From the IMG/VR virus record IMGVR_UViG_3300042923_000701, positions 1 through 21,833 of that record: a stretch of 21,833 nucleotides of DNA; one strand, written 5' to 3'. The first letter of the stretch is position 1. Each line of letters starts with the position of its first letter. The notes beneath the pieces were generated by a model that was not told where the DNA came from, ran no database searches, and was given only the letters and a program-made list of their open reading frames with translations. The stretch comes from a virus. The position numbers and the translations under genes are program-made. Positions 15,222-21,833 of this stretch are shown here, piece by piece.

Positions 15222-15416
15222 ATGAAGTATTACGCATTTACAGAGGAACAACACAGCAAGATCATTAAGTCACTAAATACAATAAGTGTGACTGGTATAA
15301 ATCAGAATGATGCATTTCACGAGGCTACTGATATACTCAGAAAGCCTGCTCTAATCGAAACAGAGGAGGTGGACAAAGATGGCAAAGAGATACATAAGGC
15401 TGAACTGGCAAAATAG
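15222..15416 (+). CDS. small fibre-associated protein, 64 aa
   Basis: A 64-residue charged protein starting at ATG 15222 after GAAAGGTGG, 15 bases after the tip gene. It begins MKYYAFTEEQHSKIIKSLNT and ends in an acidic-basic helix (VDKDGKEIHKAELAK). Its last 38 bases overlap the fibre gene in another frame and contain that gene's GAGGAGG binding site, so the two are likely translationally coupled. No family is recognised. A fibre-assembly role is possible by position alone. Confidence 0.65.
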   Translation: MKYYAFTEEQHSKIIKSLNTISVTGINQNDAFHEATDILRKPALIETEEVDKDGKEIHKAELAK

Positions 15417-15888
15417 TCCTTCGGTGGCGACACCGGTTAACGCGGTTAACCTCAACGCAATGGACAAAGGTATCGATGACTTGGACAATGCTATAGAGGA
15501 CTTGTACAGTGTCAAGTTCGACAAAGCAAACATTGTCCAGCAAGCCACAGTAAATGATGCGGCAAAGGTACCGAGCACTGCGGTAACCTACAGTTTAGCG
15601 CAGAGTGTTCAGTTGCTAAATGATAATTTAGTCGCTCAGTTAAATGGTTATAAGATATCATCAGCCACTGTGGTGCTTAACTTTGATGCAGCCGGAATGG
15701 CTTATTTCAATCATGTGGCAACGGTTGGAGCCGTGATGTTTATTTCTCCTATAGCGAATGATTTTATAGTTACCAGATGTGTTTACGATACGACTAACCA
15801 GCGATTCGAAATAAATTTCAAAACTTTTGCCGGAGCATTATATGTGAGCCAAGGTGTCGGTGTTAACTATATAGTCATAAGCAAGTAG
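15379..15888 (+). CDS. tail fibre / receptor-binding protein, switchable C-terminus
   Basis: A 169-residue protein with ATG at 15379 behind GAGGAGG (about 15363-15369). Residues 1-70 are the constant part: MAKRYIRLNWQNSPSVATPV, then a helical repeat (NLNAMDKGIDDLDNAIEDLY) and the TVNDAAKVPSTAVTYSLAQS block seen in many Clostridia phage fibres. Residues 75-169 are a beta-rich C-terminal module likely to meet the receptor. At Y71-A74 the DNA carries a 13-bp repeat, and at about codons 80-85 a 16-bp repeat. Both have exact inverted copies near 16150, next to a second C-terminal coding module on the other strand. The gene thus seems to be one state of an invertible cassette. Confidence 0.75.
   Translation: MAKRYIRLNWQNSPSVATPVNAVNLNAMDKGIDDLDNAIEDLYSVKFDKANIVQQATVNDAAKVPSTAVTYSLAQSVQLLNDNLVAQLNGYKISSATVVLNFDAAGMAYFNHVATVGAVMFISPIANDFIVTRCVYDTTNQRFEINFKTFAGALYVSQGVGVNYIVISK
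15588..15600 (+). repeat. outer inverted repeat, left copy
   Basis: CTACAGTTTAGCG inside the fibre gene encodes Y71-S-L-A74. The exact reverse complement is at 16148-16160. Confidence 0.85.
15616..15631 (+). repeat. inner inverted repeat with dyad, left copy
   Basis: CTAAATGATAATTTAG is itself a dyad (CTAAAT-GATA-ATTTAG). Its exact reverse complement is at 16117-16132. The gap to the outer repeat is 15 bases on both sides, with only about 3 of 15 bases matching between the copies. Confidence 0.85.
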
Positions 15889-16116
15889 TTATCTACACTC
15901 CAACAATTATATAATCAATAGTATATGAACCTGTTAAGTTGGCATAAACTACCAACGTATTACCTGTCACCACAGGGTTGCACGGCACATCGGAAGCATT
16001 TAAAAATCGGACTATCGCCGTAGCTCCAGAGAAGGTTTTGCTTAGGGTAATATTTCCACTTTGAGAACCAGTAAAGGTGCTTACAACTCGTCCGTAAGAA
16101 ATTTTCGTGTTAGCAC

Positions 16117-16132
16117 CTAAATTATCATTTAG
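16117..16132 (-). repeat. inner inverted repeat, right copy
   Basis: CTAAATTATCATTTAG is the exact reverse complement of 15616-15631. Confidence 0.85.
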
Positions 16133-16147
16133 TGTAGTGATAGAATT

Positions 16148-16160
16148 CGCTAAACTGTAG
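16148..16160 (-). repeat. outer inverted repeat, right copy
   Basis: CGCTAAACTGTAG is the exact reverse complement of 15588-15600. Similarity to the fibre gene ends here: the next bases outward differ. Confidence 0.85.
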
Positions 16161-16177
16161 TTTCATCCATCAAACTA

Positions 16178-16192
16178 AGACCTAAAAGGTCT
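16178..16192. other. short hairpin downstream of fibre cassette
   Basis: AGACCT/AGGTCT (16178-16183 with 16187-16192) form a 6-bp stem with an AAA loop. No long T-run follows, so it is at best a weak terminator. It lies just outside the invertible part and would follow the fibre gene in either orientation. Confidence 0.3.
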
Positions 16193-16219
16193 ATCTTAAA
16201 TAACGAAAGGAGAGTTTTT

Positions 16220-16540
16220 ATGGAAATAATCAAAATTAACAATAAGACATTTGAACTGATACCGATGGGGATAGTCCAGTCGGAAAAGAGGCGGACATAT
16301 ACCATTGTATCCGGATTGCCTTTTGCCGATATAGAGGCAGCATTTTCTGATGTATCCAGTATTCAGCATTTTTCAGAAGGTGGAGAGCTGCTGGTATCAT
16401 ACATGGATGGCATATCAGTTAAGACGATTTCAAAAGACCTAGAGACTGGCACATATACTGTAGATATCGGTATCGATGCAGTTGAGGCAGAATTAAAGCA
16501 ATTACGCGCGCAAGTAGCGGCATTAACGGTAACAGAGTAG
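16220..16540 (+). CDS. hypothetical phage protein with C-terminal coiled coil
   Basis: A 106-residue protein with ATG at 16220 after GAAAGGAGAG. The N-terminal 80 residues are beta-rich (KINNKTFELIPMGIV, RRTYTIVSGLPF, LLVSYMDGISVKTI). The C-terminus is a short heptad helix (VEAELKQLRAQVAALTV). Similar small proteins often lie between fibre and holin genes in Clostridia prophages and may be tail-tip accessories. No family was identified. A strong terminator follows at once. Confidence 0.65.
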   Translation: MEIIKINNKTFELIPMGIVQSEKRRTYTIVSGLPFADIEAAFSDVSSIQHFSEGGELLVSYMDGISVKTISKDLETGTYTVDIGIDAVEAELKQLRAQVAALTVTE

Positions 16541-18539: not shown

Positions 18540-18570
18540 CCCCGACCATTACTGGCCGGGGCTTGTTTTT
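18540..18570. terminator. bidirectional terminator
   Basis: CCCCGACC/GGCCGGGG (18540-18547 with 18554-18561, one mismatch) is followed by CTTGTTTTT on the plus strand. On the minus strand it is followed by TATTCTTTTT. It sits between the convergent HTH gene and the Ig-like gene and serves both. Confidence 0.85.
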
Positions 18571-19429
18571 ATCTTGCTTCGTTTATAAAGATTTCATAAT
18601 CATCATAAGGTAGTTTGTCGTAATTTTCATCATACGGCTCTAATATCTCCGTAGAATCGTTTTCACCTGAAGGTATGTCTGAAAAATAACCCCAACTATG
18701 CGATACTATCTTGCCTCCAATATAATATAGTACTGATATGTCTATCGACGAAATATCTTCATCACCTTCATTTGTTGCGGTAACCACTAAATACCTAGAT
18801 CCTTTATTTGACTGTAAAGAAATCTGGTCTATGATTTTATCTTGTGATACATATTCGACATCTGCCTTGATTTTTATTTCATATCTACTAAATTCCATAG
18901 GATTATAGTTATCATCAAGAGGATACCTTGCGTATTCAACTGCTTTTTTTCCTGACTCAAAAGTCCATATATATCCGGATTCAGTTGAAATTACTGAATC
19001 GTTGTTGTCGTAGTAAAGAACTTGAATTTCTGCTTGAATATTAACCTTGTTTTTATTCTGTAGAATAATTATCAACTGATCTTGCAATTCATGTGTTTCA
19101 TATGTAATATTCTCAGCTGCTTCTTTCCCTGTTAGAACATCTTTCACCCTAACCTTGCAGGTTAGTTTCTTCTTAGACACCACCGCTGTTATTGTGGCAT
19201 TCCCCTCTTTAACAGCCTTGACTGTCCCTTTTGAAGATACCGTGGCAACATTTTTATTGCTTGTTGACCACTTAATGGAGCTTGTTGTGTTTACACTTAA
19301 TCTGTAGCTCCCGCCTTCATTTAATGTAAGACTTGTATTGCTCAATCTAAGAGTAGCAGCAAATGCGGAACTTGGAAACAATGATAAACATAATGCTAAT
19401 ACAACGATAATTGCCAAAACTTTTTTCAT
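18569..19429 (-). CDS. secreted Ig-like (Big_2) domain protein, prophage cargo
   Basis: Read leftward from ATG at 19429, chosen because GGAGGTG (about 19435-19442) precedes it and a signal peptide begins there. An upstream ATG at 19486 lies in the promoter. The 286-residue protein has a signal peptide (MKKVLAIIVVLALCLSLFP, cut near SAFAA). A bacterial Ig-like group 2 domain follows at about 28-100 (SLTLNEGGSYRL; IKWSTSNKNVATVSSKGTV; VKEGNATITAV). About 170 further beta-rich residues hold two similar-looking halves (each with YYDN/YYIG and a 'Y...YEI' end). It has no anchor, so it would be exported. Codon use and position suggest a lysogenic-conversion gene. Confidence 0.82.
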   Translation of the reverse strand: MKKVLAIIVVLALCLSLFPSSAFAATLRLSNTSLTLNEGGSYRLSVNTTSSIKWSTSNKNVATVSSKGTVKAVKEGNATITAVVSKKKLTCKVRVKDVLTGKEAAENITYETHELQDQLIIILQNKNKVNIQAEIQVLYYDNNDSVISTESGYIWTFESGKKAVEYARYPLDDNYNPMEFSRYEIKIKADVEYVSQDKIIDQISLQSNKGSRYLVVTATNEGDEDISSIDISVLYYIGGKIVSHSWGYFSDIPSGENDSTEILEPYDENYDKLPYDDYEIFINEAR

Positions 19430-19457
19430 TTGTACACCTCCGTAATTTATTAATTGG

Positions 19458-19486
19458 ATTATACTACCAATGGCGTATTTTGTCAA
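19458..19486 (-). promoter_or_regulatory. consensus promoter for Ig-like gene
   Basis: On the minus strand TTGACA (19486-19481) and TATAAT (19463-19458) are both perfect and lie exactly 17 bases apart. Transcription would start near 19450 and read into the Ig-like gene 20 bases later. No operator dyad was seen, so expression in the lysogen is likely to be constitutive. Confidence 0.85.
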
Positions 19487-20434: not shown

Positions 20435-20494
20435 ATGGTGGGATTATTAGAGAGTTTCTTCTATATAAATAGGGCAAAGTGATTAATAAAGGAT

Positions 20495-20535
20495 TATGCA
20501 AATTATATGTATGGATGAATCCCTGTTCCTGTGGC
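20495..20535. other. right attachment junction (attR region)
   Basis: Similarity to ComM begins abruptly at ATGAATCCCTG (20515 onward, protein MNPCSCGYYPDR). The preceding codons (INKGLCKLYVW) do not match the usual ComM sequence before this motif. The crossover therefore lies around 20500-20530. No tRNA is involved, and insertion inside a conserved gene motif fits a large serine integrase. The integrase and the left junction are outside this window, so the core sequence cannot be fixed. Confidence 0.55.
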
Positions 20536-21006
20536 TATTACCCTGATCGAAACCGGTGCAATTGCTCCATCAATCAGGTGAAGCGTTATCTCGGACGGAT
20601 CTCACAGCCGCTATTGGATCGCTTTGATATTTGTATCGAAGCGTTGCAGATGAATTACAAAGAATTGCAGCTTCAAGAGAAACAGGAAAGTTCAGAGGAG
20701 ATTCGTAATCGGGTGGCGATTGCAAGAAGCCAACAGCTTAAGCGGTATGAGGGTCAGAATATCTACTTTAACTCCCAATTGACACCGCGATCGATAAAGA
20801 AATACTGTAAGCTGGAAGCCAAGGAGCAAGCACTGTTGGAGGAGGCCTTTCACAAAATGAATCTCAGCGCGAGAGCCTACCATCGAATCCTTAAGGTGGC
20901 TAGAACCATAGCTGACCTGGATCAGAGTGAACGGATTACAACAAAGCATATTAGTGAAGCAATCTGTTATCGTTCAATCGACCAGAAATATTGGGGAGAG
21001 TATTAA
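20512..21006 (+). pseudogene. comM: comM (yifB, Mg-chelatase-like) 3' fragment, split by prophage
   Basis: About 164 residues of the ComM C-terminus remain, against about 500 in the complete protein. The fragment starts at the MNPCSCGYYPDRNRCNC motif (a Cys-rich element conserved in ComM). It keeps the VKRYLGRISQPLLDRFDICIE arginine-finger region and the C-terminal helical Mg_chelatase_C domain (NLSARAYHRILKVARTIADL), ending YWGEY. The Walker A and B parts are missing and must lie at the left end of the prophage. ComM is a hexameric helicase that aids branch migration during natural transformation. The open frame back to GTG 20479 is phage-derived and not a true start. While the prophage is integrated, ComM should be inactive. 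Confidence 0.9.
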
Positions 21007-21029
21007 TATAGAAGGGATAGGAGAAGGCC

Positions 21030-21833
21030 ATGGATCAGATACTGTATCGGTATTGGTTAGCCAATTTACATAATATCGGAATAAAGAAAATCGAACGTCT
21101 ACTTGATGTATTCGGTAGTGCGGAGTGTGTTTATAAGGCTTCGAAAGGGGAGTTATATGCTCTCAAAAGAGATGGAGCATTTGCGGAAATGATGAGTACT
21201 AGGGATATAGAAACCATCCTATGTAATCGTGATATGGACATAGTAGCGAAGAATTATGAGAAATTGGTAGGCAATGGAATTCGTTTTGTTACCAGCGAGG
21301 AGGAAGCCTATCCGGATCGATTGCGTAACATTTTCGCGGCTCCCTATGCTCTGTATGTAAAAGGAAGACTTCCGGATAAAGAGGATAAACTGCTTGCAGT
21401 CGTGGGTGCCAGAGAATGCACCCATTATGGTATGGAGATGGCCAACTATCTCACAAGTGAGATTGCTAAGGAGGGTATACATATTATAAGTGGTCTCGCC
21501 AGAGGGATTGATACCTACGCACATCGGGGAGCACTTACATCAGGGGGGATCACGTATGCTGTGATGGGATGTGGAATAGATATCTGTTATCCGCAGGAAA
21601 ATATCAATTATTATATGGATATACAGAGGGAGGGCGGTGTCATAAGTGAATATGCACCCAAGATACAACCCATTGCTGGGAACTTCCCGATGCGAAATCG
21701 CATTATCAGTGGACTGAGCGATGGTATCTTAGTAATTGAGGCAAAAGAAAAAAGCGGATCCTTAATCACCGTAGACTATGGACTAGAGCAGGGGAAAGAA
21801 ATCTATGCCCTTCCGGGAAGAGCCACAGATCGT
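21030..21833 (+). CDS. dprA: DNA-processing protein DprA, 3' end outside the window
   Basis: ATG at 21030 follows GGAGAAGG. The frame is open for 268 codons to the window edge, against about 360 in the full protein. An N-terminal helical SAM-like part (YRYWLANLHNIGIKKIERLL) is followed by the Rossmann-like DprA core: AVVGARECTHYG near residue 124, SGLARGIDTYAHRGAL near 152-167, GCGIDICYPQEN near 180, and FPMRNRIISGLSDGILVIEA near 220-240. It protects incoming single-stranded DNA and loads RecA during transformation. It is 23 bases after comM, the usual comM-dprA operon. Interruption of comM puts its expression at the mercy of whatever promoter remains downstream. Confidence 0.95.
   Translation, partial: MDQILYRYWLANLHNIGIKKIERLLDVFGSAECVYKASKGELYALKRDGAFAEMMSTRDIETILCNRDMDIVAKNYEKLVGNGIRFVTSEEEAYPDRLRNIFAAPYALYVKGRLPDKEDKLLAVVGARECTHYGMEMANYLTSEIAKEGIHIISGLARGIDTYAHRGALTSGGITYAVMGCGIDICYPQENINYYMDIQREGGVISEYAPKIQPIAGNFPMRNRIISGLSDGILVIEAKEKSGSLITVDYGLEQGKEIYALPGRATDR

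Follow-up and report, generated by a model that had tools for sequence, protein, structure and literature searches.

We have analysed the complete 21,833-bp IMG/VR record IMGVR_UViG_3300042923_000701, hereafter the window, and our analysis of this prophage is confined to that span. Its head, tail, lysis and regulatory genes are those of a siphovirus-type prophage, and its right end is marked by host sequence at 20479–21833 (+), where a split comM-type gene (Mg_chelatase) is represented by its 3' part and accompanied by a gene recognised as dprA-like from its sequence and from the gene order. Only this 3' part, beginning at the MNPCSCGY motif, is present, which suggests that the prophage has inserted into comM. 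The same seems to hold for another prophage, L120 of Herbinix, and it is possible that integration in this gene provides on/off control of a competence gene. Near the prophage end, at 18569–19486, is a gene whose product is predicted to be secreted and has Ig-like (Big_2-type) repeats, and in relatives similar genes are located near the fibre. The tail-fibre gene itself (15379–15888, +) encodes 169 aa. Codons 1–70 (15379–15588, +) form a constant N-terminal part, recognised from the open reading frame, its conservation in relatives and a weak PHROG match to a minor tail protein, and the repeat alignment places the remaining 99 codons and the stop (15589–15888, +) in an expressed C-terminal cassette. 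A small conserved gene lies immediately 5' of the fibre in these phages (15222–15416, +). Behind the fibre, on the minus strand (15893–16159), translation and in-silico inversion reveal a silent, start-less, in-phase alternative C-terminal cassette of 88 codons and a stop; the frame is open from 16159 to 15896, and its stop at 15895–15893 is 4 nt from the fibre stop. Another small conserved gene follows (16220–16540, +), and then holin and amidase genes. A small hairpin, AGACCTAAAAGGTCT, is found 3' of the right-hand inversion site described below (16176–16196), and at this position relatives have a terminator-like GACC...GGTC with a T-run.

The left arm of an extended inverted repeat lies at 15588–15631 (+) and pairs with the right arm at 16117–16160 (−) with 32 of 44 matches, the exact blocks of 13 and 16 nt falling on one diagonal (15588–15631 against 16160–16117). 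The earlier note on this DNA had placed these blocks at 15588–15600/16148–16160 and 15616–15631/16117–16132 and had described 88 start-less minus-strand codons ending 4 nt from the fibre stop, with the same reading phase at both repeats; all of this is exact, and true alignment keeps the frame. When 15588–16160 is inverted in silico, the last 99 fibre residues are replaced by an intact, in-frame 88-residue alternative, and inversion at any point within the repeat gives an uninterrupted fibre of 158 aa. The intact fibre which the note had foreseen is thus confirmed, but its figure of 84 residues for the new end gives way to a range of 74–88 residues, set by the crossover position. The longest exact inverted repeat measures 16 nt, a length that none of 300 first-order Markov simulations approached more closely than 13 nt, and an open frame of 88 codons occurred in 0.07% (0.0007) of simulated sequences with the same composition. 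An 18-bp near-palindrome, GCTAAATRATAAKTTAGC, serves as the functional unit; it is found at 15615–15632 (+) and 16116–16133 (−) and read as L-N-D/N-N/K-L. The left site, GCTAAATGATAATTTAGT, lies inside the fibre gene, reads L-N-D-N-L and scores 25.0, and the right site, ACTAAATGATAATTTAGG, scores 22.0, on an 18-bp weight matrix which was built from the cassette sites themselves and matches its own sites by construction. It is the right-hand repeat that is the element common to relatives, and CTACAGTTTAGCG represents the coding homology of the YSLA.S...LNDNL stretch. Searches found no near or exact counterpart of the window's own two tips, and a PDB sequence search gave no meaningful match. AlphaFold models of the fibre and of the silent tip were of low confidence (pLDDT 54 and 61) and gave only a helical stalk followed by beta strands.

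At least eight other phages or prophages have the same layout (L004, L006, L013/L042, L019, L038, L041, L077 and L082), six of which were found by gathering fibre relatives from viral contigs and bacterial genomes. These six loci follow a common plan, in which an active C-terminus faces a convergent, silent, start-less and in-phase C-terminus, with an inverted site at each end; stop-to-stop gaps were −6 to +10 nt wherever measured. L013 (=L042) comes from Anaerosporobacter faecicola and L041 from Herbinix hemicellulosilytica, where the sites match at 20 of 20 positions; in L019 the cassette is in a second fibre gene and has a 51-bp repeat with 50 of 51 positions matching, and L048 carries a reduced form. 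A DNA scan with the site consensus added L077 and L082 as cassette phages with different fibre N-termini. The codon phase is identical at all fibre sites (G CTA AAT RAT AAK TTA), and because every site has the same phase, either tip would join the same stalk in frame. Single-cassette relatives (L009, L010, L005) still carry the inverted site after the stop codon, where it no longer codes for protein, from which it follows that the DNA is conserved and not the peptide alone. The weight matrix found the expected pairs and little else in each phage genome scanned; its informative results are the scarcity of other matches and the matches in loci outside the training set (L077, L082, L114, L121, L123, L178, L180 and L188). 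Motif matches in L075, L076, L080 and L083 lie in unrelated proteins and were taken as chance, and repeat matches inside other coding regions (the second in L013, those in L158, L171, L177 and L178, and the far ones in L198 and L209) were likewise judged to be chance and were not counted. On the strength of this comparison, a fibre C-terminus that would be invertible in frame is strongly supported. The usual number of tips is two, and three to four tip versions occur in G017 (L038), G067 and L077. Stand-alone, start-less tip cassettes with their own sites are present in L038 (10579–11296), L077 (11842–12482) and L114 (12372–12692), where they sit behind an endolysin or recombinase gene, which suggests shufflon-like stocks with three to four states. 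In an Anaerocolumna-type relative (L040, 978–1532) the place of the silent tip between the two inversion sites is taken by a foreign gene, which has a start codon of its own (MEELLIQIELALQYNLYYLA...).

Several of these phages encode, in addition to a large serine integrase, a tyrosine recombinase of 333–340 aa which matches the XerA, XerC and XerD models and is of XerA type. In G067, 17 bp separate its gene from an in-phase fibre cassette, and a third tip lies on the far side of the recombinase; in G419, G417, G003 and two G017 contigs it is found upstream of a late-activator-like gene, before the terminase genes. Of 397 genomes in the family to which Anaerocolumna sedimenticola belongs, which we take to be the Lachnospiraceae, 57 contain homologues. 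The surroundings of 60 homologues and the G067 fibre locus together gave 11 prophage loci with an in-phase convergent fibre cassette 16–155 bp from the recombinase; the automatic cassette search returned 21 matches, a few of which are hsdS or chance, against none in reversed sequence. We found no dedicated invertase common to all cassette phages. G002 and G010, which look complete and carry cassettes, have one integrase each and nothing more in Pfam scans of their non-structural ORFs.

The same homologues lead to bacterial defence loci. More than 20 of the 60 recombinase loci have hsdM and/or hsdS nearby, and inverted site pairs (score >=17) occur in 5 of the 60 against none with the reversed matrix. 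L121, L122 and L123 (MT838471, MT839915 and MT835621) are type I restriction-modification (R-M) loci in which the recombinase is surrounded by several hsdS parts; the public records name them "Bacteriophage sp." from human faeces, and they are actually bacterial R-M loci with invertible hsdS. The sites in these loci have the sequence GATAAATGATAATTTAGA or one close to it, which specifies the I-N-D-N-L-E conserved in HsdS. A site almost the same as that of the window recurs in inverted pairs in hsdS, beside homologues of its relatives' enzymes; the window itself contains no hsdS. In the recombinase tree, the phage enzymes of the pre-terminase slot form the sister group of the hsdS type (94/86), most of the fibre-adjacent recombinases falling outside, and the sites of slot-type phages are nearer to hsdS sites than are the AGTG-type sites of the G067 clade. 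A single enzyme family may govern the host range of phages and the defence of bacteria alike. The identity of the fibre and HsdS sites could be due in part to similar peptides in AT-rich codons, but the inverted pairs, the non-coding copies and the association with the enzyme argue against this as the whole explanation.

We consider it probable that the region at 15.4–16.2 kb works as a DNA-inversion switch with two states, by which a siphovirus tail fibre would change its receptor-binding tip, and that an XerA/PsrA-like tyrosine recombinase operates it. According to this model, the recombinase would recombine the two inverted 18-bp near-palindromic sites, one within the fibre gene and one behind the silent convergent cassette, and inversion would give the constant N-terminal stalk one or the other of two C-terminal domains that are unrelated and that would set receptor specificity. 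The fibre cassette of this prophage would still flip, with an enzyme coming from outside the record, that is, from the missing left part, a co-resident prophage or a host hsdS invertase. The window does have a place for such an enzyme. Its segments 779–1036 and 1072–1566 are adjacent and show 45% and 74% identity to the genes which flank the XerA-type recombinase in phage G419; between them (1037–1071) the slot is empty, and tblastn detected no recombinase or remnant in the window, the 35-bp gap included. With none in the window, either the enzyme is supplied in trans or encoded beyond the record, or the switch is locked. Could a once-active switch have lost its recombinase, leaving the silent tip as a relic which changes only by rare exchange between phages? 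This is the main rival, and we regard it as unlikely. The slot at 1036–1072 is empty despite its conserved flanks, and single-cassette relatives with an orphan right-hand site do exist (L009, L010, L005); however, the silent frame of the window is unbroken and in phase and its 16-bp arms are perfect, the frame is also intact in other phages without a recombinase, and the silent tip of L041 is homologous to the expressed tip of L009 (74% aa identity) with dS 0.41, dN 0.16 and a dN/dS of about 0.4. The pairing of L041 with L009 also lends indirect support to the view that both orientations may occur in a population. A working or recently working switch is the most likely reading of these sequences. 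It is possible, and we hold this tentatively, that a host hsdS (type I R-M) invertase or the invertase of a co-resident prophage flips the fibre in trans through the shared recombination site. In Herbinix hemicellulosilytica T3/55 the cassette prophage, whose 20-bp sites are perfect, is on contig C17, and a prophage with the recombinase beside its fibre is on C15. If trans supply is true, one enzyme would reassort the receptor specificity of the phage as well as the restriction specificity of the bacterium, and phages that lack a recombinase, this prophage among them, would be parasites of the host's switch.

Comparison of phages also marks the site as a recombination junction, in line with the proposed switch. 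L077 and L078 are about 20% divergent until the second base of the site is reached, and from there they are 100% identical for more than 1.2 kb, a stretch spanning both tips and the next gene; L086 matches L077 at 85% over 2.8 kb and diverges completely 3 nt past the site. These breakpoints, together with tips that diverge strongly beside near-identical N-terminal parts, would fit a platform at which phages swap tip modules, inversion within a genome being secondary or absent. We find this improbable as the main function: exchange alone would require neither a recombinase gene close by nor a second cassette that is inverted, in phase and start-less and whose stop abuts that of the first. Contig L088, which is 90% identical to L078, ends inside the site; its end and L086 are cases of metagenome contigs ending at or just past the site, which fits assembly breaks where both orientations coexist.

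The inversion reading has older parallels in the Mu G-segment (Gin), the P1 C-segment (Cin) and the Min shufflon of p15B, which likewise have invertible alternative fibre C-termini and change host range. Gin, Cin and Min are serine recombinases with their own site type and an enhancer. The earlier note had likened the cassette to the Mu and P1 segments; we have given up that kinship, as the sites, the enzyme class and the ancestry differ, the present system having a tyrosine recombinase and an 18-bp in-frame site. That a serine invertase of the Gin, Cin or Min type operates the switch is very improbable, despite the same general plan of alternative fibre ends: these phages yielded no small serine invertase and neither an enzyme nor a site homologous to those of such systems, no PF00239 gene lies near the cassettes, the only serine recombinases being large ones (about 450–570 aa) elsewhere in these phages, and the recombinases next to cassettes are XerA-like tyrosine enzymes. 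We can hardly credit that LNDNL is just a common stalk motif in AT-rich codons whose inverted copy is a coincidence, even if unrelated LNNNL proteins also match the DNA motif (L075, L076, L083), since none of the 300 simulations reached the exact 16-bp arm, non-coding inverted sites persist behind the stop in single-cassette relatives, and the controls with reversed matrix and reversed sequence gave no pairs.

The closest described system is the Rin shufflon of Bifidobacterium prophages, later also reported from Eggerthella (Eggerthella lenta), in which a tyrosine recombinase inverts tail-fibre segments (PMC6109161, PMC8778435). A second bifidophage inversion locus has no adjacent recombinase, and service in trans was suggested for it (PMC6109161, PMC8778435). 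Both systems have an XerD-like tyrosine recombinase, a constant N-terminus of the receptor-binding protein (RBP), short sites inside and behind the gene and exchangeable C-termini, which in Rin are about 95–100 residues long, and in the window too inverted sites surround an active and a silent C-terminal cassette that are in phase after inversion. They differ in the site, which is the near-palindromic 18-bp GCTAAATRATAAKTTAGC here (in the window GCTAAATGATAATTTAGT and ACTAAATGATAATTTAGG) and the asymmetric rix sequence TTCCCTAACCC in Rin; in the hosts, here Bacillota (Lachnospiraceae-type), with usually two tips; in the recombinase, which here lies beside the fibre, in the distant pre-terminase slot or is missing, the XerD-like enzyme in the RBP locus being absent from the window and present in 11 homologous loci; and in that the site here is common to bacterial hsdS loci. 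PsrA of Streptococcus pneumoniae (cod/SpnIII) is a characterised hsdS invertase with a 15-bp in-frame inverted repeat (PMC7096588, PMC4948785). It shares with the present system the tyrosine recombinase, the in-frame inverted repeat within coding sequence (the pneumococcal repeat was compared by its description) and the swap of C-terminal specificity, and the recombinases linked to Lachnospiraceae hsdS are sister to the phage ones with a nearly identical site; however, its target is the DNA-specificity subunit of a methyltransferase and here it is a virion protein. RecV of Clostridioides difficile, a tyrosine recombinase acting on distant inverted repeats mostly upstream of cell-surface and regulatory genes (PMC5903667), offers a precedent for action in trans in a Clostridia host; its mostly upstream targets set it apart.

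Fibre inversion by a tyrosine recombinase is thus known, and what is different here is the host phylum, the site, the two positions of the enzyme and, above all, the sharing with hsdS. In the open-access literature we found no paper describing a fibre switch that shares its site and enzyme family with hsdS inversion, and none of relevance that contains the site string. In phages of Lachnospiraceae-type anaerobes, our findings point to a widespread and little-described fibre switch whose site is defined and portable, one in which phage host-range switching would be tied to R-M phase variation by a common recombinase family and site. Such switches can be predicted from sequence and may explain contig breaks in fibre genes. 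The prophage in the window offers a testable case of a phage which would use a recombinase supplied in trans.
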